64,000 bases of DNA from positions 124,001 through 188,000 of the forward strand of contig NZ_PIGG01000034.1 of NCBI RefSeq assembly GCF_002924445.1, in the 5' to 3' direction. How positions within the stretch are numbered: the first letter of the stretch is position 1; every line of letters begins with the position of its first letter. The stretch is from Minwuia thermotolerans. Lineage in GTDB: Bacteria; Pseudomonadota; Alphaproteobacteria; Minwuiales; Minwuiaceae. Shown in pieces: positions 60,852-64,000 of this stretch. The notes beneath the pieces are model-generated. The model did not search any database. It was not told where the DNA came from and was given only the letters and a program-made list of their open reading frames with translations. The translations under genes and the position numbers were made by a program.

Positions 60852-61098
60852 TGCGGCCCAAACCGCGCGAACACCGGGTTTTCAAGACAATTTGAAGCTG
60901 CGGGATCGGTGCGTTTTCGCGCCTGGGCCGGCCCGGCCCGGAACGCGGCGCCGGCTGCTGACGCGCGTTCACGCCGGCTTCACGCTGCACTCCGAAACCC
61001 CCGGATACCGCGGCTCCCGGCGCGGACGGCCCCTGTTGCACCCAGGTTCGCTTCGTCATCATCCCGCTGCCTTCACTGGACAGCAAGGAGAACCAGCC

Positions 61099-61401
61099 AT
61101 GAAGACCACCCTGAAATCCCTCACCGTCGCCACCGCTCTCGCCGGCGCTGTCGGCATGGCCGCCGCGTTGACGGCCGCCCCGGCCCTGGCCGCCGACGGC
61201 GTCAAGTGCTTCGGCGTCGCCAAGGCCGGCGAGAACGACTGCGCAGCCGGCAATCACAGCTGCAAGGGTCACTCCACGGCCGATTACAGCGGCCAGGACT
61301 GGAAGATGGTCGAAGACGCCGGGAAGTGCATGGAGATGGGCGGCAAGCAGGCCGCCTTCGAGGGCATGAACGAGAAGGCGAAGATGATGAAGGACGGCTG
61401 A
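61099..61401 (+). CDS. DUF2282-type four-cysteine secreted protein (bufferin-like precursor 1)
   Basis: 100 residues. A signal peptide at residues 1-32 ([20 protein letters not shown], with ALAA before the mature start) is followed by [20 protein letters not shown], with cysteines at 37, 48, 55 and 77. The KCxGxAKAGxNDC and DYSGxxWK motifs define DUF2282. In related loci (bufferin and Gig) an MNIO enzyme modifies these cysteines. AAGGAG precedes the start. Compared with the second precursor at 62272 it has a two-residue shorter loop between Cys48 and Cys55. A hairpin terminator follows at 61412. Confidence 0.88.
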
Positions 61402-61411
61402 CCCGTCCTCG

Positions 61412-61447
61412 GGGCGCGGCGGCGGTTCGTCCTTCGCCGCGCCCTTT
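61412..61447 (+). terminator. Terminator/attenuator after precursor 1
   Basis: A perfect 10-bp GC stem (61412-61421 with 61435-61444) with a 13-base loop and a short T run (TTTCG), 11 bases after the stop. It could end the first precursor's message or reduce readthrough to the YHS gene. Confidence 0.7.
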
Positions 61448-61583
61448 CGCTTCCGGCTCCCGATCACGCGATCTCTCAACAACTCGTGTAGGGCGCGTGG
61501 GCGGGTTGCGGTCTTATCTTCCATCTCAGCGGGCCGCCGGACAGCGGCCTGAAAGAAGTCAACCAGACAGGGAGGCCGACCGG

Positions 61584-62111
61584 ATGATGCGAGGCGCTGC
61601 GATGCTTGCGGCTGCGGTCATCCTGACCCTTTCGGGCGGCGTCCAGGCGGGCGAGCAGTACGTCGACGGCAGCGGCTTCGCGCTCAGCGGCTACGATCCC
61701 GTCGCCTATCGCGGTCTGGCGCAGGCGCCTTTCGGCGAACATCAACCGCCGGCCGTGCCCGGACGGGCCGGCTTCACCGCCGAGTACAACGGCGCCAGCT
61801 GGGCCTTCTCGACCGCCGCGAACCGGGACGCCTTCCTGGCGGATCCGGCAAAATACGCGCCCGCCTATGACGGCCACTGCGCCTTCGGCGTGGCCAAGGG
61901 CGGCAAGGCCCCGGGAAACCCGCATCTGTGGCGCATCCTCGACGGCAAGCTCTATCTCAACGTCACCCGCGCGGTGGTCGGCTTCTGGGAAGCCGACATC
62001 GGTGGCAACCTGACCGCCGCCGAACGCAACTGGTCCGGTATCGAGGGTCTTCCGGCCAATGACGGCGCGGTGCCGGAACTGGACGGCGCACAGGCGCCCG
62101 TCACCGAGTGA
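61584..62111 (+). CDS. Secreted YHS-domain protein
   Basis: 175 residues. A signal peptide ([19 protein letters not shown]) is followed by the secreted YHS family core: [14 protein letters not shown] at about residues 33-46, [36 protein letters not shown] (in two pieces) and [15 protein letters not shown] domains can bind metals, and members are often found beside copper- or mercury-handling genes. AGGGAGG precedes the start. It lies between the two DUF2282 precursor genes on the same strand, which suggests a role in the same periplasmic metal response. Confidence 0.83.
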
Positions 62112-62271
62112 TCACGCCATGCACGGCTTCTGCAATGTTGTGATGGCATCCTATCGAACACGGTCGTTCCGGCTGTTGCCGGGGCGGCCTTGGCGGACGG
62201 GGTTGCGGGGAACCCGGCCGCTGGCAACACTGACCGCCCCGCGGGTCAATGAAACACAGAGGAGAATCCTG

Positions 62272-62565
62272 ATGAACGCCACCTTCAAGTCCCTTTCCGT
62301 CGTCGCCGCCCTCGCCGGTGCGGTCGGCATGGCCGCCACCCTCGGCCCGGTCGAGGCGGTCGCTGCCGACAAGGTCAAGTGCTACGGCATCGCCAAGGCC
62401 GGGCAGAACGACTGCGCCAACAAGGCCGGCACCCATTCCTGCGCCGGTCAGTCCACCGTCGATTACTCCGGCGGCGAGTGGAAGCTGGCCACCAAGGCCG
62501 AGTGCGAGGAGAAGGGCGGCCAGGAGCAGGCCTTCGACGGCGTCAACGAGAAGATGAAGGGCTGA
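62272..62565 (+). CDS. DUF2282-type four-cysteine secreted protein (bufferin-like precursor 2)
   Basis: 97 residues. The signal peptide (residues 1-32) repeats the [11 protein letters not shown] pattern of precursor 1. Mature cysteines are 37, 48, 57 and 78 ([30 protein letters not shown]). The loop before the third Cys is two residues longer than in precursor 1. It is the closest precursor to the MNIO gene and so the likelier main substrate. GAGGAGAATCCTG precedes the start. A perfect hairpin follows at 62582. Confidence 0.88.
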
Positions 62566-62581
62566 TTTCCAGCCGGGACAG

Positions 62582-62606
62582 GGGACGCCGGATGATCCGG
62601 CGTCCC
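62582..62606 (+). terminator. Hairpin between precursor 2 and the modifying enzymes
   Basis: A perfect 11-bp stem (62582-62592 with 62596-62606) and TGA loop, 17 bases after the precursor stop and 33 bases before bufB. There is no T tract, so partial attenuation or mRNA protection is more likely than full termination. Confidence 0.75.
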
Positions 62607-62638
62607 TCTGCGCCTTGCCGGAACGGTCATTGGCCGCC

Positions 62639-63514
62639 ATGAACCCGCCTGCCTCCAGCCTGCCGCCGACCGCCGGGTTCGGCCTGCGCCATCCCCATGT
62701 GCTGCAGGTCATCGACCGGCCGCCCGCCGTCGACTGGGTCGAGGTTCACACCGAAAACTACATGTATCCGGGCGGCCCGCGCCTGCGCCAGCTCGAGGCC
62801 GTGCGCGAACGCTTCGACCTCAGCCTGCACGGGGTCGGCCTTTCGCTTGGTTCGGTCGACGAGCCGGACCGGGATCATCTGAAACGCATCCGCGCGCTGG
62901 CCGACCGGTTCCGTCCCGCCGCCATCTCCGATCATATTGCCTGGGTGCGGGCGCCGAAGGCCGCGGGCGGGGCCAGCCTGAACGATCTGCTGCCGCTGCC
63001 CTGCACCGAGGAGGCGCTGGAGACCCTGGCGCGCAATATCGCCATCTTCCAGGACGCGCTTGGCCGCCGGGTGATGGTGGAGAATCCGTCCATGTATCTG
63101 GAGTTCGCCGGCGCCGAGATGGACCATGCCGAATTCGTGGCCGAGACCGTGCGCCGCGCCGGCTGCGGCCTGCTGCTCGACGTCAACAACATCCATGTCA
63201 GCGCGCGGAACCTGGGCTTCGACGCCAGTGACTACCTCGACCGCATGCCGTTCGAGGCGGTGGGCGAGATCCACCTTGCCGGCCATGCCGAGCGCGAAAC
63301 GCCGGGCGGCACGCTGCTGATCGACGATCACGGCAGCCGCGTCCGCGACGAGGTGTGGGCGCTCTACGAGCGGGCCCTGGACCGGCTCGGAGCGGTGCCG
63401 ACACTGATCGAATGGGACACCTGCATTCCCGATCTCCGGGTCATCCTGGCGGAGACGGCGAAAGCCCAGCGGCGCATGGACGCGCTGGCGGGTCCGCGCC
63501 GGGCGACGGCGTGA
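62639..63514 (+). CDS. bufB: DUF692 multinuclear non-haem iron oxidase (MNIO), BufB-like
   Basis: 291 residues. The TIM-barrel MNIO motifs occur in order: VEVHTENYM, LHGVGLSLGS (His64), ISDHIAW (Asp98-His99), MVENPSMYLEF (Glu148), LLLDVNNIHV (Asp181, Asn184), EIHLAGHAE (His212, His216), IDDHGS (Asp230-His231) and LIEWDTCIPD (Glu258). These are the usual iron ligands of MbnB- and BufB-type enzymes that turn peptide cysteines into heterocycles or thioamides. ATG 62639 is chosen; no strong ribosome site is visible. The stop overlaps the bufC GTG by four bases. Confidence 0.9.
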   Translation: MNPPASSLPPTAGFGLRHPHVLQVIDRPPAVDWVEVHTENYMYPGGPRLRQLEAVRERFDLSLHGVGLSLGSVDEPDRDHLKRIRALADRFRPAAISDHIAWVRAPKAAGGASLNDLLPLPCTEEALETLARNIAIFQDALGRRVMVENPSMYLEFAGAEMDHAEFVAETVRRAGCGLLLDVNNIHVSARNLGFDASDYLDRMPFEAVGEIHLAGHAERETPGGTLLIDDHGSRVRDEVWALYERALDRLGAVPTLIEWDTCIPDLRVILAETAKAQRRMDALAGPRRATA

Positions 63515-64000
63515 GCGGCCTCGCCGAGCTGCAGCGGCGTTTCGCCGAAAGCGTCGCCGGCAAGCCGGATCCGATACTGGACGCGCTCGTTGATGACGGC
63601 CGGCAGGCTGACCGCTTCGACGTCTACCGCAACAACACCTTCGCCTCGCTCCGCGAGGTTCTGGCCAATACCTTCCCCGCCATTGTGGCCATCATTGGCG
63701 AGGACCTGTTCGGCCGGCTGTCGGCCGCGTTCGTGCGGCACGCGCCGCCCCGGGCGAACCATCTGCTGGACTACGGCGCGGAGTTGCCGGGGTTCATCGC
63801 CCTATCGGAGCCCTTGCAGCGATGGCCGTTCCTCGCTGATGTGGCCCGCCTCGAATGGGCGGTGAATGCGGCCTATGGCGCGCCCGAGGCGACGCCGGTC
63901 GACCCTTCCGGGCTTTCCGGGCTCGCGCCGGTAGATCTGATGGCGCTGTGTCTTGCGCTGCATCCCTCGGCGGCGCTGATCGCCTCGGACTGGCCGGTGC
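63511..64000 (+). CDS. bufC: DUF2063 MNIO partner protein, BufC-like (3' end outside window)
   Basis: Only the first 163 residues are visible, from a GTG that overlaps the bufB stop (GTGA). The DUF2063 N-terminal signature RFDVYRNNTFASLREVLANTF (in two parts) and GEDLFGRLSAAFVR followed by LLDYGAELPGFIA and LADVARLEW are clear. DUF2063 proteins deliver the leader or substrate to the MNIO enzyme. Its place after bufB is the same as in bufferin and Gig operons. Confidence 0.88.
   Translation, partial: MSGLAELQRRFAESVAGKPDPILDALVDDGRQADRFDVYRNNTFASLREVLANTFPAIVAIIGEDLFGRLSAAFVRHAPPRANHLLDYGAELPGFIALSEPLQRWPFLADVARLEWAVNAAYGAPEATPVDPSGLSGLAPVDLMALCLALHPSAALIASDWPV

Follow-up and report, generated by a model that had tools for sequence, protein, structure and literature searches.

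Bufferins carry thiooxazoles derived from cysteines, are exported through Sec and sequester copper in the periplasm (PMC12452194, introduction). According to a further survey (PMC13097082, section 11), other factors such as DoxX may be involved in bufferin loading, unloading or thiol upkeep, and additional conserved genes are reported in bufferin clusters in extremely low proportions (PMC12452194, section 14). The Gig operons of Cupriavidus metallidurans and Legionella pneumophila, for which a gold and copper response is reported, hold the same four gene kinds (PMC5413113, in the portion considered here) as the locus described in this work. This locus lies at the end of a 64,000-nucleotide stretch of DNA from the alphaproteobacterium Minwuia thermotolerans (the window) and combines two DUF2282 precursors, an MNIO enzyme, a DUF2063 protein and a DoxX protein with a secreted YHS-domain protein. 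We find that the secreted YHS gene is a recurrent extra member of bufferin operons. While bufferin clusters, Gig operons, tandem precursors and sigma control are already known, no description of such a recurrent YHS gene was found, and this is the new part.

By sequence, the locus is a Buf1-type bufferin cluster (DUF2282 / MNIO / DUF2063 / DoxX), which is a known kind. It contains four-cysteine DUF2282 precursors, a BufB-type MNIO and a DUF2063 protein in the order bufA-bufB-bufC, followed by DoxX (Table 1). The MNIO protein matches PF05114 (MbnB_TglH_ChrH) with 331 bits and passes the curated cut-off of the NCBIfam model MNIO_BufB NF050167 (360.8 vs 310 bits); its closest solved structures are 3bww, 8hci and those of MbnB, and the longest open reading frame (ORF) of its gene begins upstream of the assigned start, at TTG 62615. 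The DUF2063 protein scores 73.7-74.1 bits against PF09836 (cut-off 27.2) and 58.8 against the NCBIfam model HvfC, under that model's cut-off of 142. The DoxX protein reaches 55 bits with NCBIfam HvfX, under the cut-off of 80. Both precursors are well above the Pfam DUF2282 cut-off of 22.4 (64.4 bits for precursor 1, 69.7 for precursor 2), and their scores with NCBIfam BufA2 (NF050166), 34.1 and 32.1, fall below its cut-off of 60, in keeping with precursors of the Buf1 (DUF2282) and not the BufA2 type.

The original prediction, made from the letters of the window, placed two four-cysteine DUF2282 precursors on either side of a secreted YHS protein with DUF692 and DUF2063 genes behind them, and both the coordinates and the Pfam and NCBIfam matches agree. 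The GTGA overlap that it described is real, as the GTG of the DUF2063 gene at 63511 lies inside the MNIO stop, which ends at 63514. A DoxX gene, expected past position 64000, is present there, and its start overlaps the end of the DUF2063 gene by ATGA. With the BufB cut-off passed and all four core gene kinds present, the bufferin/Gig-type assignment is likewise borne out. Compared with described Buf1 clusters, the window shares the core gene kinds, the bufABC-doxX order and the exported four-cysteine precursors, and adds YHS ahead of bufA and a second precursor ahead of YHS. YHS is not mentioned in the portion of the Gig report considered here (PMC5413113). It is also absent from the main texts of two MNIO surveys (PMC12452194, PMC13097082), whose supplementary neighbour-domain tables were not covered, and a literature search, again without supplementary tables, found none pairing YHS with DUF2282, DoxX or DUF692.

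The core unit is YHS-bufA-bufB-bufC-doxX, ahead of which the window species and one relative carry a second precursor. Among seven genomes of the genus Minwuia, the window's included, YHS is directly upstream of DUF2282 in six, and the five-gene order is intact in 6/7, as the claim that YHS belongs to the same unit would have it. In the seventh, an assembly 89% complete in ~660 contigs, neither DUF2282 nor YHS was found. A class sample of 289 genomes holds DUF2282 at 120 places in 100 genomes and YHS above cut-off at 138 places in 87. Outside the genus, a YHS gene lies within 1 kb at 6 of the 115 DUF2282 places. All six pairs are on the same strand with YHS upstream and a gap of 209-235 bases between profile ends, and they span three family labels (f42, f52, f123). 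The number of such pairs expected by chance within 1 kb is ~0.06, given the gene numbers and a genome size taken as 4.2 Mb, so that a random frequency of YHS co-occurrence, which the original prediction had named as evidence against itself, was not seen.

The phylum sample of 398 genomes overlaps partly with the class sample and includes 51 genomes besides the window's that hold both families. Outside the class, the two are adjacent in 3 of the 15 genomes with both, corresponding to 3 of the 42 that bear DUF2282; these three belong to one second class and all to family f178, with four loci. Named genomes were scanned with an alignment of the window-type YHS, which gave 519 relatives, and the best 80 were kept, a sample therefore chosen by likeness to the window protein. 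Among these best 80 of 519, DUF2282 or MNIO is found in the flank at 20, and the complete YHS-bufA-bufB-bufC-doxX order stands on one strand in 18, namely four genus genomes and 14 others with titles such as Oceanibacterium, Pelagibius, Denitrobaculum, Kiloniellaceae, Rhodovibrionaceae and Geminicoccaceae. Oceanibacterium hippocampi and Pelagibius marinus (loci L108 and L111) are culturable carriers of the five-gene unit. The genes are arranged head to head in a Roseovarius locus (L175; L labels denote loci or stretches) and converge in L180, where the MNIO is in pieces. The remaining 60, titled largely Thalassospira and roseobacters, have no bufferin match in the flank. From these genomic counts, the YHS-bufferin association is well supported.

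The linked loci vary in what accompanies the unit. Within the stretches examined, YHS-A-B-C-DoxX was found in genomes G049, G175, G271, G130, G233, G613 and G300 (G labels denote the genomes compared, G000 being the window genome). YHS-A-B-C with no DoxX match is seen at one locus of G586 (G586b), and YHS-A-DoxX with no MNIO in G059 and at the other G586 locus (G586a). A thioredoxin gene stands between YHS and bufA in the full locus of G300 (L037:5302-5619) and in G586a (L035:2549-2863), and both were confirmed. At these same two loci an AraC-type regulator is divergent from YHS, and a glutaredoxin-like ORF, judged by eye, is nearby in G586a. As separate observations, the bufferin MNIO beside YHS in L180 (6708-7730) is split into several frames, by gene decay or assembly error, and the YHS-bufferin locus L112, titled Mesoflavibacter (Bacteroidota), groups with alphaproteobacteria and is probably from a mislabelled metagenome-assembled genome.

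Table 1 Features of the YHS-bufferin locus (window positions; beyond 64000, window-equivalent positions)
Feature	Position	Strand	Remarks
Direct repeat TCACG-N6-TCACGC, possible operator	60969-60985	+	upstream of precursor 1; lead only
BufA-type precursor 1 (DUF2282)	61099-61401	+	ATG start, 100 aa, signal sequence, four Cys
Hairpin, 10-bp stem	61412-61444	+	no clear U tract; starts 11 nt past precursor 1 stop
Degenerate ECF-type promoter place, TGTAGGG-N16-GGTC	61487-61513	+	upstream of YHS; chance level (421/500 shuffles)
YHS-domain (seleno)protein family member, secreted	61584-62111	+	175 aa, one Cys (C99, GHC) in mature part
BufA-type precursor 2 (DUF2282), copy conserved in genus	62272-62565	+	97 aa, four Cys
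Hairpin between bufA and bufB	62582-62606	+	starts 17 nt past precursor 2 stop
MNIO-family bufferin maturase BufB (DUF692, PF05114)	62639-63514	+	ATG start; Pfam and NCBIfam
DUF2063 partner BufC	63511-64000 in window, ends 64287	+	GTG start
DoxX	64284-64760 (stretch L002:4284-4760)	+	past window end; PF07681, 67.1 bits

The YHS family is metal-related. The window protein scores 31.3 with Pfam YHS (cut-off 30.3) and 118 bits with the NCBIfam model YHS_seleno_dom NF041384, whose curated cut-off is 70. It differs from the common type by a short insert and a C-terminal extension, and exactly one core cysteine is kept in all 16 linked YHS proteins compared. In some members of the family this position is taken by selenocysteine, tabulated as GxU in the part of PMC13188914 considered here, and the window protein has cysteine at that selenocysteine position of the family. 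A search of the PDB by sequence returned one weak match (E 0.17). The low-confidence structural model, aligned with VIA-align, matched best to a protein of cilia (Z 4.7) and to toluene monooxygenase hydroxylases in their C-terminal part (Z 2.2-2.4), matches from which no conclusion is drawn.

We consider it fairly probable, from the families and the gene order, that the locus is a Buf1 cluster in which YHS would act as a single-cysteine periplasmic thiol redox or metal-handling partner of the bufferin. By analogy with what is reported for bufferins, BufB and BufC would turn the central cysteine pair of each DUF2282 precursor into thiooxazoles by oxidation, a single BufBC pair presumably handling both precursors, and the outer cysteine pair would form a disulphide. 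The positions of the cysteines are conserved. Sec would export the precursors, which would bind surplus copper in the periplasm, with DoxX as a likely membrane partner. The exported YHS protein, with its one cysteine at a site that is selenocysteine in some family members, would most likely act alongside the bufferin there. Its steady place ahead of bufA, together with the thioredoxin gene at two loci, favours a role in thiol redox or metal handling. A loose parallel is the fet iron cluster of Campylobacter, which encodes two putative thioredoxins next to FetA, a protein with a YHS domain predicted to be periplasmic (PMC10783030, in the part considered here).

Several observations weigh against a bufferin partner role for YHS. 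Of the 43 genomes in the class sample that contain both families, the two are neighbours in 9, including 3 from the genus, and in the phylum sample adjacency is seen in none of the 36 further class genomes with both. As most YHS and most DUF2282 genes are unlinked, YHS is not needed for bufferin function generally. Since 34 of 37 unlinked YHS proteins retain the single cysteine as well, it is not specific to the bufferin pairing; its chemistry would be a general property of YHS, put to use here. The AlphaFold model of YHS is a poor one (mean predicted local distance difference test score 66.8), and unlinked window-type relatives adjoin other genes, for example rhodanese. A stronger version of the partner role, with YHS as a dedicated fifth component of a bufferin sub-type, namely a periplasmic cysteine- or selenocysteine-type oxidoreductase, joined in some species by an adjacent thioredoxin gene, that would set the thiol or copper redox state of the mature bufferin and be recruited repeatedly in separate lineages, is tentative, and we lean against it.

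Some loci with window-type YHS carry no bufferin genes. Those of G161 (L095:2762-3780) and G499 (L099:2581-3549) continue with a small exported rhodanese-like gene, with Pfam support for L095 only. Among the 80 best of the 519 relatives, 13 named loci have a rhodanese-type motif somewhere.

As most YHS genes are unlinked, YHS might instead serve in the general stress response of the periplasm, sharing promoters with bufferins since both answer the same stress, and not touch the bufferin. AraC-type regulators, which are found upstream of linked YHS (G300 and both G586 loci) and also beside unlinked YHS (G604 and G300, outside the class), would suit such a role. Co-stress alone, however, does not require the constant position of YHS upstream of bufA on the same strand in distinct lineages, and we therefore regard this explanation as doubtful. 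A narrower form of the partner role, in which YHS itself binds copper as a chaperone or store, delivering metal to the bufferin or receiving it, and has no redox function, appears about equally unlikely. YHS is exported, its GHC site is conserved, and in G102 its gene and the adjoining one for a CusB-type efflux adaptor (together L030:3-1433 and 2094-2648) lie ~4 kb from a bufferin cluster on the opposite strand. But the protein has one cysteine and no evident second set of ligands, and the selenocysteine at the same site in relatives (PMC13188914, in the part considered here) and the thioredoxin at two loci point more to thiol chemistry.

The possibility that YHS is itself a third substrate of BufBC was also evaluated. 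It is exported, contains a cysteine and is encoded ahead of the MNIO gene, and its CAFGVAKGG segment resembles the CFGVAKAG of the precursors. The motif is, however, general to YHS, being present in proteins outside bufferin clusters, and drifts or is lost in some linked ones (CAFATAQGRK in G130). As an MNIO substrate site it was rejected as unlikely, and we hold a third substrate to be highly improbable.

Both precursors begin with a Sec-like signal sequence, as judged by eye. The extra one ahead of YHS occurs in 2/7 genus genomes, only the window genome and G003, whose locus proteins are 89-99% identical to those of the window genome. The DUF2282-YHS-DUF2282 order, which the original prediction proposed to look for in other DUF692 neighbourhoods, is confined to these two among the loci compared. 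DUF2282 stands ahead of YHS in none of the 14 other YHS-upstream loci (16 in total, in the stretches examined) and in none of the 18 same-strand loci from named genomes, within the flanks, and the order was discarded as a separate system. Doubling of the precursor is a local peculiarity that two related species share, and tandem bufferin precursors have been published (PMC12452194, section 14). Of the two-precursor-plus-YHS arrangement that had been put forward as undescribed, then, the YHS part stands and the doubled precursor does not.

In the precursor tree, precursor 1 groups weakly (80/63) with the genus precursors on a branch of length 0.86, and it is probably a divergent duplicate. Both genomes retain its four cysteines along with the KCxGxAKAGxNDC motif, an indication that it is under use. 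The window genome has one MNIO match, so that one enzyme would have to serve both precursors. A third genomic DUF2282 match (G000:C61, 24.1 bits, barely over the cut-off) is treated as spurious, since the long frame that contains it overlaps an ORF of the opposite strand. The two precursors could also form a functional pair, for example with different metal affinities, instead of simply adding dosage. The long branch of precursor 1 beside the genus precursors and its four cysteines kept in both genomes would agree with this, but there are two closely related genomes only and the grouping is weakly supported; we find a functional pair quite unlikely.

The history of the YHS-bufferin pairing was considered with trees of both partners. 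In a tree of 53 YHS proteins, 16 linked and the unlinked ones hand-picked, the label linked or unlinked needs six changes, at least three of them forced by well-supported branches. A single clade of linked YHS is rejected by the approximately unbiased (AU) test with p 1.57e-6, a value to which a long-branch caution applies. Window-type YHS with the insert and the C-terminal tail forms one branch that contains unlinked relatives, and the other linked YHS proteins are in another; a larger tree, of which only the drawing was used, shows the same split. In the precursor tree, the YHS-linked copies likewise fall into separate branches (six changes, at least four forced). Both precursor sub-types occur with window-type YHS, HSCAGQ in Minwuia and TTCAGT or TTCAGS elsewhere. 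As linked YHS is not one clade, the precursor branches are separate and the sub-types are mixed, the two genes probably came together on more than one occasion, either anew or through substitution of one partner. An old YHS-bufferin pairing that was lost repeatedly is the alternative.

Signals for expression were inspected around the locus. The terminator scan called none after the precursor genes on the coding strand, and the stems there are therefore named hairpins. The bufA-bufB hairpin occupies the same place in the genus. Among five sequences, which include two near-alike pairs, 22 pairs are predicted, 8 of them changed on both sides; 12 core pairs hold in 5/5, with 5 of these changed on both sides, and outer pairs break in some, all counted without a shuffle control. 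Strong stems after bufA also occur at several other loci, not all. The bufA-bufB hairpin is likely an mRNA-stability or attenuation element favouring precursor over enzyme, and the hairpin after each precursor gene would probably raise precursor over enzyme.

The sigma-F sites of DUF2282 operons in Caulobacter have the sequence GTAACC-N16-CGAA (PMC3511200, in the part considered here). Four sister genomes of Minwuia possess the near-like TGTAACC-N16-CGTC (CATC in G005) before YHS, with a different -10 element. In the window, the corresponding extracytoplasmic function (ECF)-type place is degenerate, the best ECF-type match for precursor 1 is at chance level (163/500 shuffles), and a scan for sigma-70 promoters found none. 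Because the pattern was read off the sister-species YHS promoters, it matches there by construction. Its totals are 0, 0, 4, 1 and 3 in G000, G003, G004, G005 and G008, hardly higher than the 1, 2, 1, 4 and 1 of the reversed pattern. Independent of how the motif was defined is the position of the sites in G004 and G008, where two of them in divergent orientation separate an ECF sigma/zf-HC2 gene pair from a DoxX-DoxX-oxidoreductase gene. An ECF regulon that includes the YHS-bufferin promoter site is probable in G008 and G004. In G008 (L188:1-2663), G004 (L201) and G005 (L200), the neighbour of the sigma/zf-HC2 pair encodes DoxX domains together with a pyridine-nucleotide oxidoreductase part.

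Two exceptions are seen. In G006 the YHS promoter is retained, yet the search for close relatives of the ECF factor gave none, and in G005 the ECF/zf-HC2/DoxX-oxidoreductase genes are present, but the search for the pattern next to them was negative. The window genome and G003 also gave no close relative of the factor. Together with the degenerate site in the window, this makes the window lineage, which has the extra precursor, appear rewired in its regulation, a lead with the exceptions given. Whereas the Caulobacter sigma-F system uses NrsF, the partner of the ECF factor in three sister genomes is an anti-sigma factor of the zf-HC2 kind. NrsF had no match in the window genome, with a positive control in Caulobacter, and NrsF-type regulation of the window locus was rejected on that ground. 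The direct repeat upstream of precursor 1 has a similar counterpart, TCACG-N5-TCACGC, ahead of YHS in four further genomes of the genus; three match it exactly and the fourth has one mismatch. The exact match before precursor 1 was reproduced in 0/200 shuffles of that region, for a motif defined after these upstream regions had been seen; with at most one mismatch, the window has 5 against 2.8 expected. Most other linked loci scanned are without the repeat.

Through the link to bufferins, the function of the YHS (seleno)protein family, to which no role is assigned in the literature passages considered here, becomes approachable. As a small soluble periplasmic protein whose gene is recurrently directly upstream of the bufferin precursor gene, YHS is a testable partner. 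It would be a concrete candidate for a missing partner in bufferin loading, unloading or periplasmic thiol upkeep.

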